Source: an uncultured Bacilli bacterium (GTDB lineage: Bacteria; Bacillota_I; Bacilli_A; RF39; UBA660). From it: a DNA stretch of 64,000 nt. Of the stretch, positions 858 to 15,636 are shown piece by piece; the first letter of the stretch is position 1; each line of letters begins with the position of its first letter. Under the pieces are notes generated by a model. The model was not told the origin of the DNA. It made no database searches and was given only the letters and a program-made list of their open reading frames with translations. The position numbers were made by a program, and so were the translations under genes. The stretch covers positions 1 to 64,000 of the forward strand of contig CALVIX010000002.1 of the NCBI GenBank assembly GCA_944331895.1, written 5' to 3'.

Positions 858-3335
858 ATGAGATCTAAGTTTGAAAACGGAAAGAAGATTCGTTTTGCAA
901 GTACTTTGAAAAAAGTAGAATTGTATTCTACATGTTTAGAATTATATTTAAAAATAAGGAATGAAAAAGAATTTCGTAATTACATGCAGTCGTTTTTCTC
1001 TGATGATACAATTCAAATTATATTAGACCAAATACATAATCAGTTAAGGACTTTCGCAATGATTGCTATCGTCGAAGAAGAAGCAGATCAAGTAAAACAC
1101 ATTGATGATAAAAAATTAGAGAAGAAAACGAAACAAAACAAAGATAATAAAACCAGGCAATTAGTAAAAGTGAGAAAATTTCAGGAAGAACAAGCAGAAT
1201 TAAGGCCAGTATACGAGAAAGTAAACACATTATTATCGCCAAGACAACAACAATTTGCAGAACTATACTTTGCATCAACATCCAATCGAGAATTGGTAAA
1301 AAAAGCGCAAGAAGAAATGGGGATCGCTGCCCAAAATGTTTCTGCATATAAAAATCCGCTTTTAAAGGAATTAAGAGAATGTCGTGATCATTATGATGTA
1401 TGGATGGCAGAAAAGTTAAAACAGAAAAATGCCTTAACACAAGGATGCGAAGAGTTAAAACCAATATACGAGAAAGTCAAAACGTTATTATCGCCAAGAC
1501 AACAACAATTTGCAGAATTATACTTTGCATCAACATCTAGTCAAGAGTTGATAAAAAAAGTCCAAGAGGAAATGGGAATTGCTGCCAGAAATGTATATAA
1601 TAAAAAAAGTACACTTTTAAAAGAATTAAGAGAATGTCGTGATCATGATGATAAATGGTTAGCAGAAAAGTTAAAACAAAAAAATGCCTCAGCACAAGAA
1701 CGAGAAGAACTAAAACCAATATACGAGAAAGTAAAACCATTATTATCGCCAAAGCAACAACAATTTGCAGAATTATATTTTTCGTCAACATCTAATCAAG
1801 AGTTGACAAAAAAAGCACGAGAAGAAATGGGGATCGCTGCAAAAAATATTTCTGCATATAAAAATCCGCTTTTAAAGGAATTAAGAAAGTGTCGTGACTA
1901 TTATGAAGAATGGGTAGAAGAGAAAACTAGGAAAAAGGAGAGGATACTAACGAAATCCTGCAATTCTGAAGACTTTCTTCAAACACAGGAACAATTAAGA
2001 CCGGTATATGAGAAAGTCAAAACGTTATTATCGCCAAAGCAACAACAATTTGCGGAGATCTATTTTGCTTCGAAAACGAATGGAGAGTTAATGGAAAAAG
2101 CAGTAGAACAAATGCATATCGCTCCACAGAGTGTTTATGGGACAAAATCCAAGCTTTTAGATACTTTAAAAAGCTGTCTGAATAATGATGAAGCATGGAT
2201 GAAAAGAAGACAATCGCGGAACAAGAAAGAGACTACAAAAGATAGGATAGTGCTTCAACAGAGAAAAACGAAAGTAGAATATGAAAATTTATATTATCTT
2301 TATCAACCATATATACCATTAGAGTATCAACGAGAGTTTGAATCATGGTTAAATCAAGATACGGAATTTGTCTCAAAACAATGTACTATCGTGATGCAAT
2401 ATTTATCTTGTTGTGATGCTGCGATGCAAAGACGACAAAGTCTTCCGAATTTTGAAGAGTGGTTTATGGATCAGCAAAAAAAGCCGAGGCAAAAAAAAGA
2501 TATAACGATGGAATTTTTACATTCGATTTCAAGAGAAGAAATTATGACTTTACTTTCACAGTTACCATCAGTACCTCAACTACCTAGATATCAAAGATTA
2601 TATGAATTTTATGGGATTCATACAACGCGTCACTCTGTTGAACAATTGTGCGAAAAATATCCTAAATTATCTCTCTCATCGATTAAAAGTGAATTGAAAA
2701 GAACTGTGATTTCTATTCAAAAACAAACATCGGAGATTTTGAAAGAAAGAGATACATGGGAAAGAGAAAGACAAGAATTACTCCCTAAGTTTACCTTTTC
2801 TAGTTTTGAGTTGGGTAAACTAGAAGCAATATGTGTGAATTATTATTATGGTTTTACAGTCGCCCCTATGACAATTTCTGAGATAGCAGAAAAGGTCCAT
2901 TTCAAAGAGTGGAAAGTAGAAAAGTTCATCCAGAGCGCTAAGTTAATATTAAAACAATCTAAAGTAGCTAAGAATCCCGCAATCCTAGCATCTGTCGAAA
3001 AAATTTCTAATGTGAATGAGGACAACATATCACAATTGCAAGATAAAGATTTCCGTGCATTGCGTTTAATGGTACAGCAAGCACTGACAACAGATGAAAT
3101 GAAATTGAATTTTGTACAAGAGAAAATCTTAAATCTTTTCTTTGGATTTCCAAATAAACCGATTAAGAGTTCTCGAGAAATTGCTGAATTGTGTGGATGT
3201 ACAGAACAAGATGCACGAACATATTTAATTGAAACGATAAGGTATGTTTTAAATTATATATCAAAAGAAGATTTTGAAACGAAATTTGAAGGAAAAAAAG
3301 TTGTAAAGCAATTATCTAGTATTTTTAATAAGTAG
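858..3335 (+). CDS. Large protein with tandem sigma-region-4-like HTH modules, unrecognised
   Basis: I do not recognise this 825-residue protein as a named family. Residues ~115-460 are four imperfect repeats of about 85-95 residues, beginning near residues 115, 200, 285 and 380. Each has the core Y-E-K-V-x-x-L-L-S-P-[RK]-Q-Q-Q-F-A-E-[LI]-Y-F, then E-E-M-G-I-A-A and L-L-K-E-L-R-x-C. The layout resembles sigma-70 region 4 (compare [13 protein letters not shown] and [12 protein letters not shown] in the rpoD product in this window). Three more diverged modules of similar shape lie at about residues 557-625, 648-700 and 750-800; the last reads E-I-A-E-L-C-G-C-T-E-Q-D-A. There is no signal peptide, transmembrane segment or sigma region 2. 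The ATG at 858 is chosen because GGTGA precedes it; a GTG at 846 overlaps the previous gene. Binding of nucleic acid by several HTH units is an inference. Confidence 0.8.
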   Translation: MRSKFENGKKIRFASTLKKVELYSTCLELYLKIRNEKEFRNYMQSFFSDDTIQIILDQIHNQLRTFAMIAIVEEEADQVKHIDDKKLEKKTKQNKDNKTRQLVKVRKFQEEQAELRPVYEKVNTLLSPRQQQFAELYFASTSNRELVKKAQEEMGIAAQNVSAYKNPLLKELRECRDHYDVWMAEKLKQKNALTQGCEELKPIYEKVKTLLSPRQQQFAELYFASTSSQELIKKVQEEMGIAARNVYNKKSTLLKELRECRDHDDKWLAEKLKQKNASAQEREELKPIYEKVKPLLSPKQQQFAELYFSSTSNQELTKKAREEMGIAAKNISAYKNPLLKELRKCRDYYEEWVEEKTRKKERILTKSCNSEDFLQTQEQLRPVYEKVKTLLSPKQQQFAEIYFASKTNGELMEKAVEQMHIAPQSVYGTKSKLLDTLKSCLNNDEAWMKRRQSRNKKETTKDRIVLQQRKTKVEYENLYYLYQPYIPLEYQREFESWLNQDTEFVSKQCTIVMQYLSCCDAAMQRRQSLPNFEEWFMDQQKKPRQKKDITMEFLHSISREEIMTLLSQLPSVPQLPRYQRLYEFYGIHTTRHSVEQLCEKYPKLSLSSIKSELKRTVISIQKQTSEILKERDTWERERQELLPKFTFSSFELGKLEAICVNYYYGFTVAPMTISEIAEKVHFKEWKVEKFIQSAKLILKQSKVAKNPAILASVEKISNVNEDNISQLQDKDFRALRLMVQQALTTDEMKLNFVQEKILNLFFGFPNKPIKSSREIAELCGCTEQDARTYLIETIRYVLNYISKEDFETKFEGKKVVKQLSSIFNK
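1200..2240 (+). repeat. Four in-frame tandem repeats (255-bp period)
   Basis: Repeat units begin at 1200, 1455, 1710 and 1995. The first two spacings are exactly 255 bp and the third is 285 bp, owing to a longer linker. Identity between units 1-3 is high at the DNA level, with blocks such as CGCCAAGACAACAACAATTT recurring. This implies recent in-frame duplication within the coding sequence. Confidence 0.9.
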
Positions 3336-3340
3336 ATAGA

Positions 3341-3362
3341 AGAACATTACGATGTTCTTTTT
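3341..3362 (+). terminator. Rho-independent terminator
   Basis: AGAACAT-TACG-ATGTTCT followed by a T-run. It ends the repeat-protein transcript, 12 bases before the next promoter. Confidence 0.85.
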
Positions 3363-3373
3363 CTATAGGGGTA

Positions 3374-3382
3374 TGATATAAT
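3374..3382 (+). promoter_or_regulatory. Extended -10 promoter of fhs
   Basis: TGA-TATAAT lies 17 bases before the fhs ATG, with no clear -35 box. The same arrangement recurs through the window. Confidence 0.65.
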
Positions 3383-3399
3383 GAATTAGAGGTGATACG

Positions 3400-5043
3400 A
3401 TGAAAACAGATTTGGAAATCGCACAGGGACATACAATGTTACCTATTGTAGAAATTGGTAAAAAGTTAGGACTCGAAGAAAATATGTTAGAATGTTATGG
3501 AAAGTACAAGGCAAAGATTACAGGGACACCGAGAGAAAATCACCAGGGGAAACTTATTCTTGTGACAAGTACCAATCCAACTCCATATGGCGAGGGAAAG
3601 ACGACGATGGCAATCGGACTTTCCGATGCGCTTTGTAAATTGGGATGTCGTTCTCTACCAGTATTAAGAGAACCATCTTTAGGACCTGTTTTCGGAATCA
3701 AAGGAGGAGCAACCGGCGGGGGATACGCTCAAGTAGTTCCGATGGAAGATATCAATCTGCATTTTACTGGAGATATGCATGCACTAACATCCGCTAATAA
3801 TCTTTTGTGTGCTGCAATCGATAATCATATATTTCAAGGAAACGAACTTAAGATCGATAAAAATAGGATCATGGTATCGAGAGCAATGGATATGAACGAT
3901 CGTGCATTGAGAAATATTACAGTAGGATCGAAGGAAGACAAAAGAGAGGATTCCTTTGTAATTACAGTTGCAAGTGAATTGATGGCTATTCTGTGTCTAG
4001 CAGAAAACTTAGAGGATTTAAAAGCACGAATCGCACGTATTTGTATTGGCTATAATTTAGAAGGGAAGCCACTTTACGTGAGAGATTTACACGTCGAAGG
4101 TGCGATGACGTTACTTTTAAAAGATGCGATCAAACCTAATTTAGTACAGACGCTAGAAGGGAATCCTGCCATTTTACATGGAGGACCATTTGCCAATATC
4201 GCACATGGATGTAATTCACTGATTGCGACAAAGATGGGACTGTCTTTGGCAGATTACGTAGTGACAGAAGCAGGATTTGGATCGGATCTCGGTGCGGAAA
4301 AGTTTTTGGATATCAAATGTAGATATGGAAATTTAAAACCATCTGTGATTGTTTTGAATACGACGATTCGCAGTTTAAAATATAACGGAGGATCGACGAA
4401 AGAAGCGTTAGCAGAAGAAGATCTAGATTTTTTGAAAAATGGAATTGTCAATCTAAAAGCGCATATTGAAAACATGCAGAAATATTTAAATCATGTTGTC
4501 GTATGTATCAATCAGTTTGAAAGTGATACAGAGGAAGAATTAAACTATGTGAAGAATTATTGTGAGAATCTCGAGGTATCCTGTGCTTGTTCTAGCGCAC
4601 ATACGAAGGGAAGTGCTGGTTCATTAGAACTTGCGCAACTTGTTTTAGATACATGTAAAGAAGAGAGCAAATTTCAATTGTTATATCAAGATGAAGTATC
4701 ACTTACGGAAAAGATTGAAAAGGTGAGTCATGAAATTTATAGGGCTTCCGACATTCAGTATGAACAAGGTGTTTTAGAAAAATTAAAACAATATGAAGCA
4801 ATGGGGTACGGGAGTCTACCTGTATGCATTGCTAAGACGCAATATTCTCTTTCGGATGATGCAAAAAAATTAGGGCTCCCAGAAGGGTATACGATGACGG
4901 TGCGCGATGTGAATTTGAATAGTGGAGCAGGTTTTATCGTTGTGTTGATGGGAAATATTATGACGATGCCAGGGTTACCAAAACACCCAAATTACGAGAA
5001 AATCGATATCAAAAAAGACGGGACAATCGTCGGGTTATTTTAA
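3400..5043 (+). CDS. fhs: Formate--tetrahydrofolate ligase
   Basis: A 547-residue enzyme that makes 10-formyl-THF from formate, ATP and THF, feeding purine synthesis and initiator tRNA formylation. The ATP-binding P-loop-like motif P-T-P-Y-G-E-G-K-T lies at residues 60-68. It is followed by the family signatures R-E-P-S-L-G-P-V-F-G-I-K-G-G-A and H-F-T-G-D-M-H-A, and near the C-terminus by G-N-I-M-T-M-P-G-L-P. Length matches the family. The start has AGGTGAT nine bases upstream. It is a single-gene transcript flanked by terminators. Confidence 0.97.
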   Translation: MKTDLEIAQGHTMLPIVEIGKKLGLEENMLECYGKYKAKITGTPRENHQGKLILVTSTNPTPYGEGKTTMAIGLSDALCKLGCRSLPVLREPSLGPVFGIKGGATGGGYAQVVPMEDINLHFTGDMHALTSANNLLCAAIDNHIFQGNELKIDKNRIMVSRAMDMNDRALRNITVGSKEDKREDSFVITVASELMAILCLAENLEDLKARIARICIGYNLEGKPLYVRDLHVEGAMTLLLKDAIKPNLVQTLEGNPAILHGGPFANIAHGCNSLIATKMGLSLADYVVTEAGFGSDLGAEKFLDIKCRYGNLKPSVIVLNTTIRSLKYNGGSTKEALAEEDLDFLKNGIVNLKAHIENMQKYLNHVVVCINQFESDTEEELNYVKNYCENLEVSCACSSAHTKGSAGSLELAQLVLDTCKEESKFQLLYQDEVSLTEKIEKVSHEIYRASDIQYEQGVLEKLKQYEAMGYGSLPVCIAKTQYSLSDDAKKLGLPEGYTMTVRDVNLNSGAGFIVVLMGNIMTMPGLPKHPNYEKIDIKKDGTIVGLF

Positions 5044-5048
5044 AAAAG

Positions 5049-5070
5049 AAAGCAACCATGAGGTTGCTTT
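5049..5070. terminator. Bidirectional terminator between convergent genes
   Basis: AAAGCAACC-ATGA-GGTTGCTTT has A-runs and T-runs on both sides. It serves fhs on the plus strand and the transglutaminase-like gene on the minus strand. Confidence 0.85.
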
Positions 5071-5072
5071 TA

Positions 5073-5606
5073 CTATATGATATAAAGTTGTTTTTGTAGA
5101 GGCTTTTTTTCGACGTATTGTTTGAATTCTTGTAAAGATAATCCTGTAGGGACAGAATCTATTTCATATATATTTGTATCTGATGTTACATCGAAATCGT
5201 ATTGATATCTTAATTTGGCAAAACATCTTTCTTTATTGGGATAAATATATACACCTTTTCTTTGAGCACTTGCATGTTCGAAGTGGTAGACGAGGTTATC
5301 TTTAAATACTAAAGTAAAACAATGTATACGAAAGTCAGCGTCTGTTCCACCTGTTTTTTTAGAAACGAGAGTATAAAGTTTCGTTGGAAGATTATGATAA
5401 GTAAAGTACTCTCTTTGATATAAAGATTGTTCGATACAGCTTCCCACATGATTTTTAGCTGCTTGTTCTAACGAAGAAGTACGATATAATTCGTGGAAAT
5501 TTTCCATCGTCTCTTTGTGACAAATATTATTTTCGTCCCACCATCCGTAGGAAAATTTTTCGTCCATTTCTTGCAGAAATTTTTTTAAAAACAAGTATGT
5601 ATCCAC
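5073..5606 (-). CDS. Transglutaminase-like (papain-fold) protein, tentative
   Basis: A 177-residue cytoplasmic protein with no signal peptide. The segment H-V-G-S-C-I-E-Q-S-L-Y is typical of the nucleophile helix of transglutaminase-like cysteine hydrolases. A downstream hydrophobic strand with R-I-H-C-F-T-L-V-F and Y-H-F-E-H-A-S could supply the His and the acidic residue of a triad. Substrate and pathway are unknown, and the family call rests on this pattern only. The ATG is preceded by an AGGAGG site (minus strand, around 5614-5620). It stands alone, convergent with fhs and divergent from tetR. Confidence 0.5.
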   Translation of the reverse strand: MDTYLFLKKFLQEMDEKFSYGWWDENNICHKETMENFHELYRTSSLEQAAKNHVGSCIEQSLYQREYFTYHNLPTKLYTLVSKKTGGTDADFRIHCFTLVFKDNLVYHFEHASAQRKGVYIYPNKERCFAKLRYQYDFDVTSDTNIYEIDSVPTGLSLQEFKQYVEKKPLQKQLYII

Positions 5607-5684
5607 GGTAACCCCTCCTTTTAGCCGGCTATTATATCATAGGAAGGGAAATATGTAAAATTGTGGTAAATAGAATTGTTTTGG

Positions 5685-5749: not shown

Positions 5750-6373
5750 ATGCCAACAGAAACTTTTTTTAGATTACCAAAAGAAAAGCAAGATTGTATT
5801 TTAGCTTCAGCAATGAAAGAGTTTAGCCGTGTTCCTTTTCACGAAGCTTCTATCAATCAAATTATTATGAACGCAGGAATTCCTCGTGGTAGTTTTTATA
5901 TGTATTTTAAAGATAAAGAAGATTTATACAGTTATCTTTTAAAGACACATGAGAAGAAACTAGAAGAAGGGTTTACGAAGGCACTATATGAACATGATGG
6001 CGATTTGATTGATACGTATCTTGCATTATTTGAAACTGTAATCCATAAAATAAAAACGGATAAAAACCGAGATTTTTTCCATCGTATGATTATGAATACA
6101 GATTTCAAGAACGATTCTTTTTTTAAAAAGCACGAGTTAAAAAATGTCGTTTTATCACAGATGTTCGATCATGTTGATTTTACAAAGTTAAGGTTGACGT
6201 CAAAGGAAGATTTATCTGAGATTGTCGATTTGATTCACATGATGTTCATTCATAATTTAGTGGCAATTTTAAAGTTTGGACTTACAAAGGAAGAAGCGAT
6301 GGAAAAATTTAAAAGACAATTGATGTTTCTGAAAAATGGTTTCTATCAATCCAAGGGAGGAGAAATATGCTAA
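5750..6373 (+). CDS. TetR/AcrR family transcriptional regulator
   Basis: A 207-residue regulator. Residues ~10-55 form the TetR HTH: a first helix over K-Q-D-C-I-L-A-S-A-M-K-E-F, then I-N-Q-I-I-M-N-A-G-I-P-R-G-S-F-Y-M-Y-F-K-D-K-E-D-L. The remainder is the helical ligand-binding and dimerisation domain. It overlaps the first ABC exporter gene by 7 bp, and the shared promoter contains an inverted repeat. It therefore probably represses its own operon until an exporter substrate binds; the ligand is unknown. Confidence 0.92.
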   Translation: MPTETFFRLPKEKQDCILASAMKEFSRVPFHEASINQIIMNAGIPRGSFYMYFKDKEDLYSYLLKTHEKKLEEGFTKALYEHDGDLIDTYLALFETVIHKIKTDKNRDFFHRMIMNTDFKNDSFFKKHELKNVVLSQMFDHVDFTKLRLTSKEDLSEIVDLIHMMFIHNLVAILKFGLTKEEAMEKFKRQLMFLKNGFYQSKGGEIC

Positions 6374-8526
6374 AAGTATTTAGATATTTGAAAAGTTCGA
6401 TCCTTTCTATCTTAGCGATCATCTTACTTTTATTTTTGCAAGCTTGGTGCGATTTAACTTTACCTGAATATACTTCGAAGATCGTCAATGTCGGAGTACA
6501 GCAAAGTGGGATCGAGAATGCTGCAATTACGGAGATGGGAGAAAGTACTTATCAAAAAATAATGCTTTTCCTAGATGAAAAGGATCAAAAATACGTAGCA
6601 AAGTCTTACGAAAAAGATGGTTCTTACAAAGACGAGACTATTTACAAGCGAAAAGATGGAGTAGATCAAGAGAAATTAGGTGATATTCTTGCAGAACCGA
6701 TGATGTTGATTTCTTACGCATCTGATCCTGAAGCAAGTAAGATGTTACAACTACCAGAAGGGGTAGATTTATTTCAAATGCTTTCTGTTATGCCAGAAGC
6801 ACAAAAGAAAGAAATGATGAAAGAAATCGACAAGAAGATGGAAGACATTCCAGAGACGATTGTCGATCAAGCTGCTGTTGCTTATAGTAAGACGGAACTA
6901 GTTCGAATTGGTGTCGATACAGATCAAATGCAAACAAAATACATCTTTATTACAGGTGCAAAGATGTTAGGACTTGCACTTATCATCATGTTGGATGGAA
7001 TTTTAATCGTCTTTATTGGTTCACGTATGGCAGCTCGTCTTTCTAAGACACTTCGTGAAAAGGTATTCCATAAAGTACTAGATTTTTCAAAAACAGAGAT
7101 GAAAGAGTTAAGTGCGTCTAGTTTGATTACGAGAACGACAAACGATATTCAACAGGTTCAGATGGTAATTGTATTCTTACTTCGTGTTGTATTCTATGCG
7201 CCGATCATTGCTGTCGGAGGACTGATCAAAGCGATGAATACCAACGCAAGCATGACGTATATTATCGGAATTGCAGTTCTATCTATTTCTATTCTCGTTA
7301 TCGTGATGTTTGGAATCGCAATGCCAAAGATGAAGAAAATGCAAAAGATGGTAGACCGCTTGAATCAAGTAACGAGAGAAATTTTAACGGGTCTTCCGGT
7401 CGTACGTGCTTTTGCAAACGAGAAACACGAGGAAGAACGCTTCGATGGAGTTAACGATCGTTTAACGAGACTTACACGTTTTGTCGGACGTACGATGTCA
7501 TTTATGATGCCAGCGATGATGTTTATCATGAATATGATTTGTTTACTTATCGTATGGAAGGGAGCAAATGGTGTCGATACAGGTACAATGCAAGTAGGAG
7601 ACATCATGGCTTACATTCAGTATACAATGCAAATTATCATGGCATTCTTAATGATCTCTATGATGAGTATTATGTTGCCGAGAGCAAGTGTTAGTGCGAA
7701 ACGTATTAACGAAGTGTTAGAGCATGATATTGCAATTAAGGATCCAAAAGTAAAGAAAGCGTTCGATCCAAAGAAACGTGGAACGGTAGAATTTAAAAAT
7801 GTATGTTTCCGTTATCCGGATGCCGACTATGATGTTCTTACCGATATCAACTTTGTCGCAGAACCTGGAAAGACGACGGCATTTATCGGAAGTACCGGAA
7901 GTGGAAAATCGACTGTAGTTAATTTAATTCCAAGATTCTTCGACGTTTCAAAAGGAAGTATTTTGATCGATGGAGTTGATATTCGTGAAGTTGGCGTTCA
8001 CGAGTTACGTGATAAAATTGGATTTGTTCCACAAAAAGGGGTTTTATTCAGTGGGACGATCGAATCGAATATCAAATATGGAAACGATCATATTACTGAC
8101 AAGATGATGAAGGAAAGTGCTCGCGTTGCGCAGGCGACAGAATTTATCGAAGCACAGGAAAAAGGATATCAGGCACCAATTAGCCAAGGCGGAACGAACG
8201 TCAGTGGTGGTCAAAAACAACGTCTTGCCATCGCTCGTGCACTTGCCAAAGATCCAGATATCTTTGTCTTTGACGACAGTTTCTCAGCGCTTGATTTTAA
8301 GACGGATGCTAAATTGCGTGCGGAACTTGCTAAAATTACGAAGAAAAAGACTGTTTTAATCGTTGCTCAACGTATTAGTACGATCATGAATGCAGATGAG
8401 ATCATCGTATTAAATGAAGGTGAAGTTGCAGGAAAAGGTACACACCGAGAACTTATGAAGACGTGTGACGTTTACCGCGAAATTGCATTATCACAATTAA
8501 GTAAGGAGGAGTTAGATTATGAATAA
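6367..8526 (+). CDS. ABC exporter half-transporter with degenerate ATPase site
   Basis: A 719-residue TMD-NBD fusion of the heterodimeric multidrug-exporter class (BmrC/LmrC type). After the first membrane helix (~15-35) there is an unusually long extracellular, acidic, helical insert to about residue 190 before helix 2. Walker A is G-S-T-G-S-G-K-S-T (~508-516) and the signature is V-S-G-G-Q-K-Q-R. Walker B reads F-V-F-D-D-S, so the catalytic Glu is Asp, and the H-loop reads V-A-Q-R instead of A-H-R. These changes mark the non-hydrolysing half of a heterodimer. The C-terminus overlaps the next gene by 8 bp. Confidence 0.93.
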   Translation: MLKVFRYLKSSILSILAIILLLFLQAWCDLTLPEYTSKIVNVGVQQSGIENAAITEMGESTYQKIMLFLDEKDQKYVAKSYEKDGSYKDETIYKRKDGVDQEKLGDILAEPMMLISYASDPEASKMLQLPEGVDLFQMLSVMPEAQKKEMMKEIDKKMEDIPETIVDQAAVAYSKTELVRIGVDTDQMQTKYIFITGAKMLGLALIIMLDGILIVFIGSRMAARLSKTLREKVFHKVLDFSKTEMKELSASSLITRTTNDIQQVQMVIVFLLRVVFYAPIIAVGGLIKAMNTNASMTYIIGIAVLSISILVIVMFGIAMPKMKKMQKMVDRLNQVTREILTGLPVVRAFANEKHEEERFDGVNDRLTRLTRFVGRTMSFMMPAMMFIMNMICLLIVWKGANGVDTGTMQVGDIMAYIQYTMQIIMAFLMISMMSIMLPRASVSAKRINEVLEHDIAIKDPKVKKAFDPKKRGTVEFKNVCFRYPDADYDVLTDINFVAEPGKTTAFIGSTGSGKSTVVNLIPRFFDVSKGSILIDGVDIREVGVHELRDKIGFVPQKGVLFSGTIESNIKYGNDHITDKMMKESARVAQATEFIEAQEKGYQAPISQGGTNVSGGQKQRLAIARALAKDPDIFVFDDSFSALDFKTDAKLRAELAKITKKKTVLIVAQRISTIMNADEIIVLNEGEVAGKGTHRELMKTCDVYREIALSQLSKEELDYE

Positions 8527-10336
8527 TCATGGACCAGGTCCTAAAAACAACGTCCCTGTCAAAGTAAAGGACATAAAGGGGACCTCTTTAAAATTGTGGG
8601 GGCTTTTAAAACAGTATAAAATTTCATTATTGTTCGTCATTTTATTTGCCATTGGTTCGACTGTATTTACGATCATAGGACCGAAGATATTAGGAAATAT
8701 TACGACTGAAATATTTAATGGCCTTATGTTAAAGATCAGTGGAACCGGTGGAATCGACTTTGATAAAATCAATCAAATTATTCTCGTATTGGTTGCTCTT
8801 TATATCGTAAGTTTGTTCTTCTCGTTTATTCAAGGGTTTATCATGAGCAATGTCTCTGCTAAGATCTCTTATAATTTACGTAAAGATTTAATCGAAAAAA
8901 TCAACCATTTGCCAATGAAATTTTTCGATACGAAAACACATGGAGAGGTACTTTCTCGTATTACAAATGACGTCGATATGTTGACGCAAAGTTTGAATCA
9001 AAGTATCACATCGATTATTACAAGTATTGCAACTTTGATCGGAATCTTCACCATGATGGTATCGATCAATATTCCAATGGCAATCGTCGTCTTGTTAATC
9101 GTACCATTCTGCATGATCGTTTTAGGTATCGTTATGAAGAAGAGTCAGATTCACTTCTTGAATCAGCAAAAATTCTTAGGTGATATGAATGGTCACGTAG
9201 AGGAAATCTACGGTGGACACGATATCGTAAAAGCATTTAATGGAGAAGATAAAGCAAGTGTTCACTTTAACGAAATCAATCATGATCTATACGATTCAGC
9301 ATGGAAGAGTCAATTCTTATCTACGATGATGCATCCAATTATGCAATTTATCGGAAACTTAAGTTATGTCGTCGTATCGATCTTAGGTGGATACATGGTC
9401 ATCAAAGATAAGATCGCAGTAGGAGATATTCTATCTTTTACGCAGTATGCGAGAACATTCATGCAACAGATTAGTCAGTTGTCACAAATTATGAACATGG
9501 TACAACAAGCACTGGCCGCAAGTGAGAGAGTATTTGAGTTCTTAGACGAAAAAGAGGAAGTTGAAACAGCAACGAAACCACTTCCTGTAGATAAGATCAA
9601 AGGAAATATCGAGTTTAAGCATGTTCAATTCGGTTATAACGAAGATCGTATCATCATCAAAGACTTTAGTGCGAAGGTAAAACAAGGGGCGAAAGTCGCA
9701 ATCGTTGGACCTACTGGAGCTGGTAAGTCTACGATGATTAAGCTTTTGATGCGTTTTTACGATGTCAATAGTGGTGCAATTTTAGTAGATGGACACGATG
9801 TACGTGATTTCAAACGTCAAGATCTTCGTTCTATCTTTGGAATGGTATTGCAAGACACTTGGCTATTTAGTGGAACCGTTGCAGATAATATTCGCTACGG
9901 AAAATTAGATGCATCTTTAGATGAAGTAAGAGAAGCATGTAAAACAGCAAGTGTCGATCACTTTATCCGTACATTACCAGATGGATACGATATGATTATC
10001 AATGAAGAAGCAGACAACATCTCTGGTGGACAGAAGCAATTACTTACGATCGCTCGTGTGATTCTAGCAGATCCAAAAGTATTGATCTTGGACGAAGCGA
10101 CAAGTAGTGTTGATACGAGAACAGAGTTGTTGATCCAAGATGCGATGGATAAATTGATGGAAGGTAGAACAAGTTTCATCATCGCACACCGTCTATCGAC
10201 GATTAAAAATGCAGATCTCATTATCGTTATGAACGAAGGAGATATCGTCGAGACTGGAAACCACGAAGAATTGCTTGCGAAAGATGGATTCTATGCGAAG
10301 TTATATAATTCACAATTCGAAGAAGTGGAAGAATAA
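8519..10336 (+). CDS. ABC exporter half-transporter with canonical ATPase site
   Basis: A 605-residue partner of the preceding gene. It has six membrane helices in the first ~330 residues. The NBD has Walker A G-P-T-G-A-G-K-S-T (~397-405), signature I-S-G-G-Q-K-Q-L, an intact L-I-L-D-E-A-T-S-S-V-D with catalytic Glu, and an intact I-A-H-R-L-S-T H-loop. Together the pair would have one active and one degenerate ATP site. The substrate is not evident; control by TetR suggests drug, bile salt or peptide export. Confidence 0.95.
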   Translation: MNNHGPGPKNNVPVKVKDIKGTSLKLWGLLKQYKISLLFVILFAIGSTVFTIIGPKILGNITTEIFNGLMLKISGTGGIDFDKINQIILVLVALYIVSLFFSFIQGFIMSNVSAKISYNLRKDLIEKINHLPMKFFDTKTHGEVLSRITNDVDMLTQSLNQSITSIITSIATLIGIFTMMVSINIPMAIVVLLIVPFCMIVLGIVMKKSQIHFLNQQKFLGDMNGHVEEIYGGHDIVKAFNGEDKASVHFNEINHDLYDSAWKSQFLSTMMHPIMQFIGNLSYVVVSILGGYMVIKDKIAVGDILSFTQYARTFMQQISQLSQIMNMVQQALAASERVFEFLDEKEEVETATKPLPVDKIKGNIEFKHVQFGYNEDRIIIKDFSAKVKQGAKVAIVGPTGAGKSTMIKLLMRFYDVNSGAILVDGHDVRDFKRQDLRSIFGMVLQDTWLFSGTVADNIRYGKLDASLDEVREACKTASVDHFIRTLPDGYDMIINEEADNISGGQKQLLTIARVILADPKVLILDEATSSVDTRTELLIQDAMDKLMEGRTSFIIAHRLSTIKNADLIIVMNEGDIVETGNHEELLAKDGFYAKLYNSQFEEVEE

Positions 10337-10612: not shown

Positions 10613-11935
10613 ATGAAAGTACTTGTAATTATGTTTACTAAGATATTGCAAAGAATATTAAAATTATTTGGAAGAGGTAGTTCTCTGCCAGGGACGATTG
10701 CTCGTAAATTAAGCCCCAACATTTTAAACAAATTTAAACTCCCTAATATTACGATCTGCGTGACAGGGACGACTGGAAAGACATCGATTTCTGGAATTCT
10801 CTGTCAGATCTACGAACAGGCAGGATATACAGTTGGAAATAATTCAAAAGGATCGAATTTGGAAGATGGTGTCATTAGCTTACTTTTGGAAAATTCCACA
10901 GTTACAGGGAAAGTGAAAACAGATGTATTAGTTATCGAGCTTGATGAACGGTATGTGAAACGCGTATTTAAACATATGCAACCGGATTATTTTATTGTAA
11001 ACAACATATCACGTGATCAAATGGCGAGAAATGGTCATTTTGATATCGTATGGAATGACATTCACGAAAATATTACAGATTCTATCCATTTGATTTTGAA
11101 TGCCGATGATCCGCTCATCTACCGTATGGCTTTAGATCATCAGGGAAAGGTTTCCTACTATGGACTTAGAAGAACAAAGTATTCTCGCGATAAAGCAAAT
11201 GGTGCACTCGACTTGAGTTATTGTCCTATTTGTCATCACAAATTAATTTTCGATTATTTTCACTATGGAAATATCGGTGGGTATCATTGTCCAAACCATG
11301 ATTTTTCACGTCCTAATGTCGTTTATGAGAGCGTATTAAACGACGATGGCTCTTTCACGATCGATGGACAAGTCATTCAGACCGAGAATAATGCGCTATA
11401 TCAGATTTACAATTTATCTGCAGGATATGTAACCGCACTTGTATCAGGAGCGGTAGATAGAGAAAAGATTGCCTATGCATTAAATTATCTTAAATTAAAG
11501 ACAAAGCGACTCGATACATTTCAAATTGGAAAAGTAGAGGCAACTTTACTATTAAGTAAAAATGATACGCCGATTTCTTACAATCAATCGATCGATTATA
11601 TATGTAATCAAAAAGGAAAGAAGACGGTATTTTTAGGTTTTAATACCATCAGTATTATGTATAACATCAAAGATATCTCTTGGATGTATGATGTAAATTT
11701 TGAATTGTTACAGGACGAGAGCATCGAAAAAATCGTCTGCATGGGAAGTTTTGCTTACGATATCGGAGTTCGTTTGAAATATGCGAATATCGATATGGAA
11801 AAAGTAGTTTATTTTGAAGATTCCACGCCGATGCTTTCGATTATCGCAGAAAATACAATAGGACATGCATATCTCGTGTTCCCATTTGATATGGAACATC
11901 AGTTTCAAGCACTTATGAAAGAGAAGGTGAAATAA
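10613..11935 (+). CDS. murT: Lipid II isoglutaminyl synthase subunit MurT
   Basis: A 440-residue Mur-ligase-like enzyme. With GatD, MurT amidates the alpha-carboxyl of D-Glu in lipid II. A hydrophobic N-terminus is followed by the Mur ligase P-loop T-G-T-T-G-K-T (residues 51-57), the D-E-R-Y and N-N-I-S-R-D-Q motifs, and an inserted zinc-ribbon region (C-P-I-C at 204-207, C-P-N-H near 226-229). The fourth ligand is His where characterised MurT proteins have Cys. The C-terminal domain keeps D-I-S-W-M-Y-D, matching the conserved D-x-S-W-x-x-D motif that supplies the triad Asp to GatD. The start is the ATG at 613 after GGTGAT, not the in-frame ATG 12 bases earlier. It abuts gatD. Confidence 0.93.
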   Translation: MKVLVIMFTKILQRILKLFGRGSSLPGTIARKLSPNILNKFKLPNITICVTGTTGKTSISGILCQIYEQAGYTVGNNSKGSNLEDGVISLLLENSTVTGKVKTDVLVIELDERYVKRVFKHMQPDYFIVNNISRDQMARNGHFDIVWNDIHENITDSIHLILNADDPLIYRMALDHQGKVSYYGLRRTKYSRDKANGALDLSYCPICHHKLIFDYFHYGNIGGYHCPNHDFSRPNVVYESVLNDDGSFTIDGQVIQTENNALYQIYNLSAGYVTALVSGAVDREKIAYALNYLKLKTKRLDTFQIGKVEATLLLSKNDTPISYNQSIDYICNQKGKKTVFLGFNTISIMYNIKDISWMYDVNFELLQDESIEKIVCMGSFAYDIGVRLKYANIDMEKVVYFEDSTPMLSIIAENTIGHAYLVFPFDMEHQFQALMKEKVK

Positions 11936-12672
11936 TGGAATTTCATATCGCACATCTATATTACGATATTTTAAATTTGTATGGGGAACACGGAAACCTC
12001 AACGCATTAAAAAGGCAATTAGAAACACAAGGGATAGAACCTGTGATTCACTTTCTTTCCATCGATGATGAGATCGATATCTCTAAGTTTGATCTTATCT
12101 ATATCGGTGCCGGAACGGAGGAAAACGAAAAGTTTGTCTTAAGTCATTTGATGAAATATAAAAACGACATTTTATCGGCGATCGATAATGGTACATTTTT
12201 CTTGATTACGGGAAGTGCACTTAATTTCTTTGGTAAAAAATGGATTCAAAAAGATGATACAGAGTTGGAATGCCTTGGGGCATTTGGCTTTGAAGTGAAG
12301 GAAGAGCCGATGCGAATGATCGATGAGTGTTATTTTACGTGTGACTTTTTAAAAACACCAGTCATTGGGTTTCAAAATCAATGTACTGTAATGAAGAATA
12401 ACGATGCTACGATGTTTACTGTAAAGCGTGGGATTGGAATGTATCCGAATAGTCAAAGAGAAGGGGTACATAAGAATCATTTTTATGGAACTTATCTAAT
12501 TGGACCTGTGTTGGTGCGAAATCCAGAATTATTACAATATTTGGCAATGGAGATGATTCGAACAAAGTATCCAGATGTTGTATTTCAACCATTTGATTTA
12601 GAATTAGATTTGAAAGCACACGATCACTATATCGATCGATATTTTTCAAAGTTAAAAATAGAGGAGGAGTAG
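11935..12672 (+). CDS. gatD: GatD-like glutamine amidotransferase subunit lacking catalytic Cys and His
   Basis: A 245-residue class-I-GATase fold protein starting on the last base of murT. It aligns with GatD throughout: L-N-L-Y-G-E-H-G-N near residue 14, Y-I-G-A-G-T-E-E-N at ~56, F-G-K-K-W-I...T-E-L-E-C-L-G at ~99-114, and G-T-Y-L-x-G-P at 185-191. The nucleophile elbow, normally I-C-G-G-Y-Q, reads I-T-G-S-A-L with no Cys. The catalytic His in G-T-Y-L-H-G-P is Ile (residue 189). The substrate loop H-G-G-R-T is also not conserved. The reading frame is intact, so this is a maintained protein rather than a pseudogene. It may bind MurT without hydrolysing glutamine. Confidence 0.88.
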   Translation: MEFHIAHLYYDILNLYGEHGNLNALKRQLETQGIEPVIHFLSIDDEIDISKFDLIYIGAGTEENEKFVLSHLMKYKNDILSAIDNGTFFLITGSALNFFGKKWIQKDDTELECLGAFGFEVKEEPMRMIDECYFTCDFLKTPVIGFQNQCTVMKNNDATMFTVKRGIGMYPNSQREGVHKNHFYGTYLIGPVLVRNPELLQYLAMEMIRTKYPDVVFQPFDLELDLKAHDHYIDRYFSKLKIEEE

Positions 12673-12673
12673 A

Positions 12674-14053
12674 ATGAATACGATGATGATTGCACTTGCT
12701 TTTACAAGTGTCATGTTACTACTAGGAATGTTATTGCGTGCAAATGTTCCGCTATTTAGAAAAATGTTAGTTCCAACGAGCGTACTTGCGGGAATGATTG
12801 GTTTTATCTTATTAAATTTGAATTTAAAAATTTTTGATGGACTTTCATCTGATACGTTTACGACGATCGTCAACGAGTTATTTACATTGTCGTTTATCTC
12901 GATTGGACTTACAAGTGTCGGAAAAAGTTCGGAGAAAAAAGGGAAGACAGCAAAAGAAATTGCGAAAGGATCCCTTGGAATGGGAACGATTTGGTGTATC
13001 TTATATGCATTACAACCACTATTGGGAGCTCTCATTGTCATATTGATTGGATCTTTCTTTGGAATGAATCCAATTTACGGATTATTGATTCCATTTGGTT
13101 TTGCGCAAGGACCTGGACAAGCTGCAACGTTTGGAGGACTATTCGAGGAGTATGGATTTGAAAATGCTGCTATGGTCGGCCTATCATTTGCAGTCATCGG
13201 ATTTTTGATGGCTTTCTTCGTAGGAGTCATCTTGGTAAAACTCGCAATGAAACGTGGTATTATCAAAAATCAGAAAAGTGATATTACTGTGGAGAGAGGA
13301 TATTATAAAGAACCGAATGAAAATGAAGTCATGGGGTATGAAACGACACATAGTGGAAATATTGAAACACTCGCTTTTCATTTCTCTATTATGGGATTAT
13401 GTTATTTAATTGCGATCGGAATATCTAAATTATTTTCATATTTACCAAGTTTCTTAGGAAGTAGTATGAGTGGAATGATGTTCATGAATGGAATGATTGC
13501 TGCTTATTTGGTAAAGGCAATTATGAAGAAATTAAAGTTAGATGGAATGATCGAAAATACATTGCAAAGTAAAATTACAGGATTTTTAACAGACTTTGTC
13601 GTTGCATGTTCTTTCATGGCAGTACGTGTTGGAGTAATCGGTTCAGTAATCGTACCAATTCTCGTGGTTTCTGCCGTCGGTACAGTTGCGACTGTTGCGA
13701 TTTGTCTTTATTTTGGAAGTCGTATTGGTGGTAAAAATGATTTTGAAAGGACACTGGGGCTCTATGGAACAAGCACTGGAACGGTTCCATCTGGAATTGC
13801 CCTCGTACGTATGGTAAATCCAAAATTAACTGGTACGACAGCGATCGAACTTGGTATGATGAATATTACGATGATGTTATCTGCGCCAGTTTATCTTTTA
13901 ATTTTAGCTTGTGCATCTAAGACGGTATCTTTAACGATCACATTAGTTGGACTGTTCGTTCTTACAGTCGTATATATTGTTTTCATGAAAGTATTCCGCT
14001 GTTGGGGAAAACCAACATATCATTGGTTTGATAGAAAGAAGGAAGCAGAATGA
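12674..14053 (+). CDS. Sodium/glutamate symporter family (GltS-type) membrane protein
   Basis: A 459-residue polytopic membrane protein with about 12 helices. The pore-loop signature G-F-A-Q-G-P-G-Q-A-A near residue 140 and its second-half counterpart around G-L-Y-G-T-S-T-G-T-V-P-S-G (~360) are hallmarks of the GltS fold. GltS carriers import glutamate with sodium. It starts one base after gatD behind GAGGAGG and overlaps the next gene by 4 bp, so it belongs to the murT operon. Glutamate or glutamine transport would suit that context, but the substrate is an inference. Some GltS relatives transport other anions. Confidence 0.85.
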   Translation: MNTMMIALAFTSVMLLLGMLLRANVPLFRKMLVPTSVLAGMIGFILLNLNLKIFDGLSSDTFTTIVNELFTLSFISIGLTSVGKSSEKKGKTAKEIAKGSLGMGTIWCILYALQPLLGALIVILIGSFFGMNPIYGLLIPFGFAQGPGQAATFGGLFEEYGFENAAMVGLSFAVIGFLMAFFVGVILVKLAMKRGIIKNQKSDITVERGYYKEPNENEVMGYETTHSGNIETLAFHFSIMGLCYLIAIGISKLFSYLPSFLGSSMSGMMFMNGMIAAYLVKAIMKKLKLDGMIENTLQSKITGFLTDFVVACSFMAVRVGVIGSVIVPILVVSAVGTVATVAICLYFGSRIGGKNDFERTLGLYGTSTGTVPSGIALVRMVNPKLTGTTAIELGMMNITMMLSAPVYLLILACASKTVSLTITLVGLFVLTVVYIVFMKVFRCWGKPTYHWFDRKKEAE

Positions 14054-15636
14054 AAAAACTTTATTATGGTGGTACGATCATTACGATGGAAGAGCCGATG
14101 ACGGTAGAAGCAATCGTCACGGATTTCGATCGCATCGTTGCTCTTGGAGCCTTCGAAGAATTGAAAGCAGCATATCCAGAATCTGAATTCATAGATCTTG
14201 AGGGACTTACATTGATGCCAGCATTCATCGATCCACATAGCCATATTACGATGACGGCAAATATGATGATGGCAACGGATTTAACAGAGTGTTTATCTTT
14301 TGATGATATTGTTGCAACATTAAAAAAAGATTTAGAGAAAAAACATTTAGGAAAAGATGATGTTTTAATTGGATTTGGTTACGATCACAACGTGTTAAAA
14401 GAAGAAAAACATCCGACGAAAGATGTTCTAGATCAAGTTTCAAAAGAAGTGCCAATATTTATCACGCACGTCTCTGGACATATGGGATGTGGTTCTAGCA
14501 AAGTATTAGAACTTGCTCGCGTTACGGCAGATACGAAGGATCCTGAGGGAGGTAAATTTGGTAGAGTCGATGGTACGATGGAACCAGATGGATATTTTGA
14601 AGAGGGTGCGATGATGCAACTCTATCAAGCATTTGGAAGTCGTATGCAAGTAGATACGTTAAGTTTATTAAAAGAAGCAGAAAAGTTATACGCAAGTTAT
14701 GGAATTACGACTGTGCAAGATGGTGCTAGTACCAAAGAGACGATCGAACTTTTAAAAGCAGCGGGAAAACACGGAGTTTTATATCTCGATGTCGTCGCTT
14801 ATCCACTTTATAGCGCAGGTGCTGAAAGTATCATGAGAGAAAATGAAGACTATACGAAGTTTTATCATAATCATTTAAAGATAGGCGGATATAAGCTTAT
14901 TTTAGATGGTTCTCCGCAGGGAAAGTCAGCATGGATGACACAACCTTATGAAAATAGTGGAGATTATAAAGGATATCCATGGATGAAGGATGAAGATGTT
15001 CTTACATGTATTGAAAGTGCTATCGAAAACAAACGTCAAGTACTTGCACATTGTAATGGAGATGCCGCATCCGATCAGTACCTAAGATGCTATCAAAAAG
15101 CATTAGAAAAGAACGATGATCGAACGCTGAGACCTGTGATGATTCACTGTCAGACAGTTCGAAAAGATCAGTTGGAACAGATGAAAAACATTCATATGAT
15201 TCCATCCATCTTTATCGGACATACATACTTTTGGGGAGATGTTCACGTTAGAAACTTTGGTATCGATAGAGGAACTCATATTAGCCCAGCAGGTTCTGCC
15301 CTAAAGTTAGGATTACCAGTTAACTTTCATCAAGATACACCTGTTACGAAACCTAATATGATGCACTCTGTTTGGTGTGCTGTAAATCGTATTTCAAGAA
15401 GTGGTAAAGTGCTTGCAGAGGAAGAAAGAATTTCTGTATTGGATGCACTGAAAGCAGTAACGATCAATGCCGTATACGAATATTTCGAAGAAGGGGAAAA
15501 AGGAAGTTTAAAAGTAGGAAAGAAAGCAGATTTCGCACTTTTAGACCAAGATCCACTTATGATCGATCCTATGAAACTGAAAGATATCGTCGTAATGAAG
15601 ACGATCAAAGATGGAGAAGTTATCTACGAACGTTAA
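14050..15636 (+). CDS. YtcJ-like amidohydrolase
   Basis: A 528-residue metal-dependent hydrolase of the amidohydrolase superfamily. The N-terminal beta-sandwich strand is followed by the metal-binding H-S-H at residues 63-65 (F-I-D-P-H-S-H). Later metal and catalytic positions fall in V-L-A-H-C-N-G-D and P-V-M-I-H-C-Q, and the terminal Asp in F-H-Q-D-T-P. The C-terminal G-S-L-K-V-G-K-K-A-D-F-A-L-L-D is typical. YtcJ-type enzymes act on amide or imide bonds of small molecules; the substrate is unknown here. It overlaps the GltS gene by 4 bp and is the last gene of the operon. Confidence 0.88.
   Translation: MKKLYYGGTIITMEEPMTVEAIVTDFDRIVALGAFEELKAAYPESEFIDLEGLTLMPAFIDPHSHITMTANMMMATDLTECLSFDDIVATLKKDLEKKHLGKDDVLIGFGYDHNVLKEEKHPTKDVLDQVSKEVPIFITHVSGHMGCGSSKVLELARVTADTKDPEGGKFGRVDGTMEPDGYFEEGAMMQLYQAFGSRMQVDTLSLLKEAEKLYASYGITTVQDGASTKETIELLKAAGKHGVLYLDVVAYPLYSAGAESIMRENEDYTKFYHNHLKIGGYKLILDGSPQGKSAWMTQPYENSGDYKGYPWMKDEDVLTCIESAIENKRQVLAHCNGDAASDQYLRCYQKALEKNDDRTLRPVMIHCQTVRKDQLEQMKNIHMIPSIFIGHTYFWGDVHVRNFGIDRGTHISPAGSALKLGLPVNFHQDTPVTKPNMMHSVWCAVNRISRSGKVLAEEERISVLDALKAVTINAVYEYFEEGEKGSLKVGKKADFALLDQDPLMIDPMKLKDIVVMKTIKDGEVIYER

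Follow-up and report, generated by a model that had tools for sequence, protein, structure and literature searches.

Cysteine-less MurT–GatD pairs with a remodelled MurT, candidate amino-acid ligases of the peptidoglycan precursor

The lipid II isoglutaminyl synthase MurT/GatD, a drug target in major pathogens, is taken to be an amidase in whatever organism it is found. Among other enzymes acting on the peptidoglycan precursor, MurD and MurE add an amino acid to one of its carboxyls. The structure of type B walls has been known since the 1970s, and we know of no ligase identified for their cross-bridge. This bridge, which occurs in Microbacteriaceae and Erysipelothrix, links the alpha-carboxyl of D-Glu to D-Ala4 and needs the same carboxyl that MurT activates.

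The MurT/GatD enzymes of S. aureus, S. pneumoniae and S. pyogenes (PDB 6gs2, 6h5e, 6fqb and 9sq9) are among the closest known systems. In S. aureus GatD, the substitutions C94G and C94S abolished glutamine-dependent amidation (PMC3266927, PMC6113224). MurT combined with GatD C94G used no glutamine at either pH and no ammonia at pH 7.5, and kept ammonia-dependent amidation of lipid II at pH 8.5 (PMC3266927 Table 2); GatD was still required as a structural partner (PMC3266927).

The pairs described in this study share with canonical MurT/GatD the two genes and their order, both folds, the P-loop, the Pfam domains and, in the clade of the window, the equivalent of Asp349. They differ from the canonical enzyme in lacking Cys94 and His189, in the replacement of ENHGG, KNPxG and NDxxDGxDxSW, and in scoring far under the equivalog cut-offs. 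GatD is retained as partner here as in the S. aureus C94G mutant, and the window GatD has the same residue at the nucleophile site; unlike that mutant, the naturally occurring pairs have lost His189 as well, and their MurT is remodelled. With MurD and MurE the pairs have in common an expected ATP-dependent acyl-phosphate chemistry and a C-domain motif that aligns with NDSKATN of MurD, whereas their MurT lacks the UDP-binding N-terminal domain and has a GatD-like partner.

The pair in the window and the wall genes of its genome

The window, meaning the whole stretch of 64,000 nucleotides of DNA from an uncultured Bacilli bacterium that was analyzed, carries murT and gatD as adjoining genes sharing one base (Table 1). 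Window MurT matched Pfam MurT_C (PF08353, 74 bits) and Mur_ligase_M (PF08245, 37.5 bits), both over cut-off, and scored 195.6 and 200.8 bits with the NCBIfam MurT equivalogs, for which the curated cut-off of 800 was not reached. Window GatD, a Pfam GATase_3 protein, was matched by S. aureus GatD with a phmmer E-value of 6e-28, and its scores of 104 and 107 bits likewise did not reach the curated equivalog cut-offs of 400 (NF045636) and 450 (NF052463). In AlphaFold2 modelling, carried out on single chains, the MurT model (pLDDT 86.0) had MurT chains as its best PDB matches, and the GatD model (pLDDT 88.5) matched GatD crystal structures first, with VIA-align Z scores of 26.6-28.5 and the next matches at 17.3.

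Table 1. Coordinates in the window of the murT-gatD pair, its diagnostic sites and its flanking genes
Feature	Position	Strand	Evidence
MurT-like Mur ligase paired with the Cys-less GatD, 444 aa	10601..11935	+	Pfam, NCBIfam, AF2
GatD-like subunit lacking the catalytic Cys and His, 245 aa	11935..12672	+	alignment, AF2
MurT P-loop GTTGKT, kept	10766..10783	+	alignment
MurT C-domain motif SKNDTPISYNQS in place of canonical KNP[AT]GxN	11555..11590	+	alignment, hhalign
MurT GFNTISIMYNIKDISWMYD in place of LNDNAADGRDTSWIYD	11636..11692	+	alignment
MurT D358, equivalent of Asp349, kept	11672-11674	+	alignment
GatD Gly93 codon, position of S. aureus Cys94	12211..12213	+	alignment
GatD Ile189 codon, position of S. 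aureus His189	12499..12501	+	alignment
TetR-family regulator, then two ABC exporter half-transporters	5750-10336		
Sodium/glutamate symporter (PF03616; GltS) and Amidohydro_3 genes	12674-15636		

A sequence-only reading of this DNA had described a GatD lacking both catalytic residues with its fold motifs and reading frame kept. Alignment to S. aureus GatD (6gs2/5n9m) agreed, placing Gly93 and Ile189 at the two positions; the former elbow reads F-L-I-T-G-S-A-L-N-F-F-G, the residues around Ile189 read G-T-Y-L-I-G-P, and QNQCT stands where S. aureus GatD has ENHGG. The open reading frame is intact, and the structural matches above bear out the fold. The same reading had called MurT intact-looking, which holds for the GTTGKTS P-loop and for the residue equivalent to Asp349 but not for two canonical motifs, since SKNDTPISYNQS and ISIMYNIKDISW are found where KNPxG and NDxxDGxDxSW would be expected. 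Loss of glutaminase activity is expected in GatD of the window type, and with glycine at position 94 it is nearly certain, because C94G and C94S each abolish glutamine-dependent amidation in S. aureus.

The genome that holds the window (1.12 Mb, 83% complete) has a second MurT-GatD pair, likewise without Cys and His. It also encodes MurC, MurD, two tandem MurE, MurF and a membrane-anchored MurF-like protein, so that MurE, MurF and MurT genes are all duplicated; the presence of MurC, D, E and F means that a peptidoglycan precursor exists. One of the MurE paralogues has DNPRHEDP, the meso-DAP motif, and the other DDPHNEDP, which suggests, at the level of motifs, a second amino acid at or near position 3. 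For RF39 bacteria, a wall of the meso-DAP type has been predicted (PMC10868615). In the MurF-like ligase, the usual UDP-binding domain is replaced by a hydrophobic N-terminal region that probably spans the membrane; a normal MurF is also present.

The regulator and exporter genes lie directly upstream of murT. On the other side, the symporter gene begins one base past the gatD stop codon, and the Amidohydro_3 gene follows, overlapping it. At this locus murT-gatD may be co-transcribed with the glutamate uptake gene; the downstream GltS gene formed no recurrent neighbour cluster in relatives.

Breadth of the family and independent losses of the cysteine

Of the first 14 GatD loci read, ten had no Cys, and each of these lay next to murT. 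The set examined grew to 212 distinct Cys-less pairs, drawn from RF39-like and Erysipelotrichaceae genomes, from Clostridia and from Microbacteriaceae. When sampling was widened, Cys-less pairs predominated in the family of the window and were common in a second family, which includes Erysipelothrix, alongside genera with canonical pairs. The Bacillota pairs fall into two subclades, R (GPxLxRNP), to which the window belongs, and L (GPxLxLNP). When named genomes were scanned with an L-clade profile, 80 loci were recovered, none of which has the Cys; they lie in Erysipelothrix sp. HDW6A, an Erysipelothrix MAG, Neglectibacter, Acutalibacter, Anaeromassilibacillus, Scatolibacter and [Eubacterium] infirmum, as well as in many Clostridia MAGs, two Propionibacteriaceae MAGs and one Microbacteriaceae MAG. 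Several genomes had two or three pairs. Across 135 neighbourhoods, no recurrent partner was seen beyond MurT-GatD itself, with MurB, alanine racemase and PheST as occasional neighbours.

The Cys-less family has conserved motifs of its own, for example TGN[AS]xELFG at the former elbow, and its frames are open in nearly all genomes. Among close relatives, dN/dS (Nei-Gojobori) was 0.04-0.14 for GatD and 0-0.13 for MurT, both values for the most distant pair being saturated; judged by these ratios, purifying selection on the two subunits is strong. A sequencing error that hid the Cys and His of GatD, or a pseudogene, was rejected, as the replacement is fixed across the family (more than 200 distinct pairs), recurs in the second pair of the same genome and is accompanied by low dN/dS.

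Among 100 Microbacteriaceae genomes, with membership assigned through the seed genome and through the likeness of the Cys+His members to a Leifsonia plasmid pair, 66 had a Cys-less pair (two of these also a canonical one), 12 had Cys+His only and 22 had no detected GatD, though E-value searches can overlook divergent copies and a closer second profile added ten Microbacteriaceae pairs, all Cys-less. Cys-less GatD was therefore present in 66 of the 78 genomes having any GatD. Sampled evenly, the class Actinomycetes yielded 70 GatDs, of which 65 had Cys and His; three of the other five belonged to the Microbacteriaceae clade and two had Asp, so that outside this clade 2 of 67 were Cys-less. Fisher's test of 66/12 against 2/65 gave P 4e-26, a value that treats genomes as independent though the tree indicates essentially one loss.

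In a concatenated tree, the Cys-less clade of Microbacteriaceae was nested in canonical Actinobacteria with support 1.0, apart from the Cys-less clade of Bacillota, and this topology shows, for the sequences sampled, that the cysteine was lost at least twice independently. Within Microbacteriaceae the tree placed the loss as essentially one event at the base of the clade, and position 94 is now occupied by several different residues. In at least four Microbacteriaceae the single pair found is of the Bacillota type (L-clade), with His at position 94 (FTHNA), and a fifth genome has a still more divergent pair. This pattern suggests that a Cys-less pair was exchanged for another by horizontal transfer.

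The two Actinomycetes GatDs with Asp at position 94 represent a third Cys-less kind, in which His is kept and MurT has KNPAG without NDxxDGxD. On a plasmid of Leifsonia shinshuensis (2724-5673), a MurT-GatD pair lies by a VanY-like M15 peptidase gene, among metal-resistance genes; it was considered as a type B example and rejected, being a canonical Cys+His pair beside a VanY gene.

Remodelling of MurT and the reaction of the pair

The C-domain of canonical MurT carries KNP[AT]G, and NDxxDGxDxSW around Asp349; the second motif includes the DNAAD element, which is suspected to bind the muropeptide (PMC6113224). In their place, R-clade MurTs have SKNExxxSYxQS and xISRRYxxxDLSW, L-clade MurTs have KxxNPxxxSRVFD and SENxAW, with Asn instead of Asp349, and the Cys-less MurTs of Microbacteriaceae have KNPxSLQxNLD and DEGTPDPSW. 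With duplicates removed and pairs counted without adjustment for shared ancestry, 101 of the 102 Cys+His pairs had NDxxDGxDxSW, against none of the 212 Cys-less pairs. The P-loop is retained throughout the Cys-less MurTs, and the ATP and acceptor residues of the middle domain are kept (N81 and E113 among the invariants). By hhalign, the remodelled SKNDTP falls opposite NDSKATN of MurD, the site at which MurD holds the incoming D-Glu. From these alignments, the remodelling of MurT is read as a change of amine substrate.

The reading that we prefer, and to which we would give about an even chance, is that the pair is an ATP-dependent ligase that joins an amino acid, and not ammonia derived from glutamine, to a carboxyl of the peptidoglycan precursor. 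Such a pair would descend from a lipid II isoglutaminyl synthase whose GatD stopped being a glutaminase. On the membrane-bound precursor, MurT would still convert a carboxylate to an acyl phosphate, and this carboxylate would most likely be the one that canonical MurT activates, the alpha-carboxyl of D-Glu2. GatD would act as a structural or amine-binding subunit, and the amino group of the amino acid would take the place of glutamine-derived ammonia as nucleophile. The Asp349 equivalent, which MurT of the window clade retains, counts against this reading.

The sequence-only reading, which covered neither the second pair nor the changes in MurT nor how widespread the family is, had left three options: use of free ammonia by MurT, supply of ammonia by another enzyme, or a different modification of lipid II. 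The third fits best, because the amine-site and muropeptide motifs of MurT change alongside the loss of the cysteine and because this loss recurred within a family with type B walls.

Free ammonia ranks second and appears unlikely. The pair would then still make D-isoglutamine, from NH3/NH4+ rather than from glutamine. The gut, the presumed habitat of many Cys-less lineages, is rich in ammonia, and the S. aureus C94G protein, having the residue of the window GatD, retains ammonia-dependent amidation of lipid II while still being needed as a structural partner; this activity, however, was seen at pH 8.5 and not at pH 7.5. Additionally, a free-ammonia amidase predicts neither the replaced amine-site and muropeptide motifs of MurT, nor the varied residues at position 94 in Microbacteriaceae, nor the enrichment in a family that cross-links through the D-Glu alpha-carboxyl. 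It is placed second because the rebuilt MurT and the concentration in the type B family are left unexplained.

Somewhat less likely again is the same chemistry on another substrate, either a different carboxyl of the stem peptide (e.g., that of meso-DAP) or an acid outside peptidoglycan. Such a change would agree with the replacement of NDxxDGxD, the suspected muropeptide binder (PMC6113224), and with the duplicated MurE, MurF and MurT genes of the window genome, but less well with the retention of the middle-domain ATP and acceptor residues and with a pair that remains an isolated two-gene operon, sometimes by MurB or alanine racemase. Supply of ammonia in trans, from another glutaminase that docks either with MurT or with the inactive GatD, is formally possible and very improbable, as no amidotransferase gene recurred in the 135 neighbourhoods and GatD itself is conserved beside MurT. 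Decay of the pair under relaxed selection, where amidation of D-Glu is not needed, would fit its complete absence from some relatives, but the low dN/dS of both genes, the new conserved motifs, the frames open in nearly all genomes and the maintenance of multiple paralogues leave it hardly any room.

Fit and misfit with type B walls

In the type B peptidoglycan of Microbacteriaceae, the alpha-carboxyl of D-Glu is the attachment point of the bridge (PMC4156110, PMC5945732, PMC9603630), the wall being B2beta in Rhodoluna (PMC4156110) and B2gamma in Subtercola (PMC5945732) and Clavibacter (PMC9603630). The wall of Erysipelothrix rhusiopathiae is B1delta, with D-Glu-Gly-L-Lys (PMC4062643). Related chemistry is found in an A-type wall, that of Intrasporangium, where the D-Glu alpha-carboxyl bears glycine (PMC3035309). 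A bridge extended in the C direction, starting at the D-Glu carboxyl, needs a carboxyl-activating ligase, such as a Mur-type enzyme, and not a FemABX-type transfer. In type B lineages, the proposed amino-acid ligase would attach the first residue of this bridge, and the two or three paralogous pairs of some genomes would fit the addition of successive residues. A search of openly licensed full texts found no paper on a Cys-less GatD or on an assigned type B ligase.

Cys-less pairs are frequent in taxa with the type B cross-bridge, but the two distributions match only partly. Although Microbacteriaceae are described as a type B family, 22 of the 100 genomes had no GatD and 12 had Cys+His only, which counts against a type B role. 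In most Erysipelothrix genomes the search for GatD found nothing, the two positives being sp. HDW6A and the MAG. In one complete Erysipelothrix genome, MurT was absent from the 1.2 of 1.9 Mb searched, where MurC-F were present; type B walls therefore cannot need the pair everywhere. The DNPR-type (meso-DAP) MurE of the window genome was also counted against the type B reading. Altogether, the link to type B walls, drawn from genome content, is suggestive but incomplete. It is thus only tentatively, and with more doubt than for an amino-acid ligase as such, that we propose the glutaminase-dead MurT/GatD pairs as the ligases of the D-Glu alpha-carboxyl bridge in type B and related alpha-substituted walls, evolved at least twice and with GatD as the amine-substrate subunit.

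Large bacterial groups thus appear to have versions of MurT/GatD that are unable to use glutamine, with the partner rebuilt alongside, and automated annotation names the Cys-less GatD proteins glutamine amidotransferases. If these pairs are amino-acid ligases, they would explain the making of the C-directional type B bridge, and they would provide a natural experiment in which an amidotransferase was converted to a peptide ligase in at least two convergent events.
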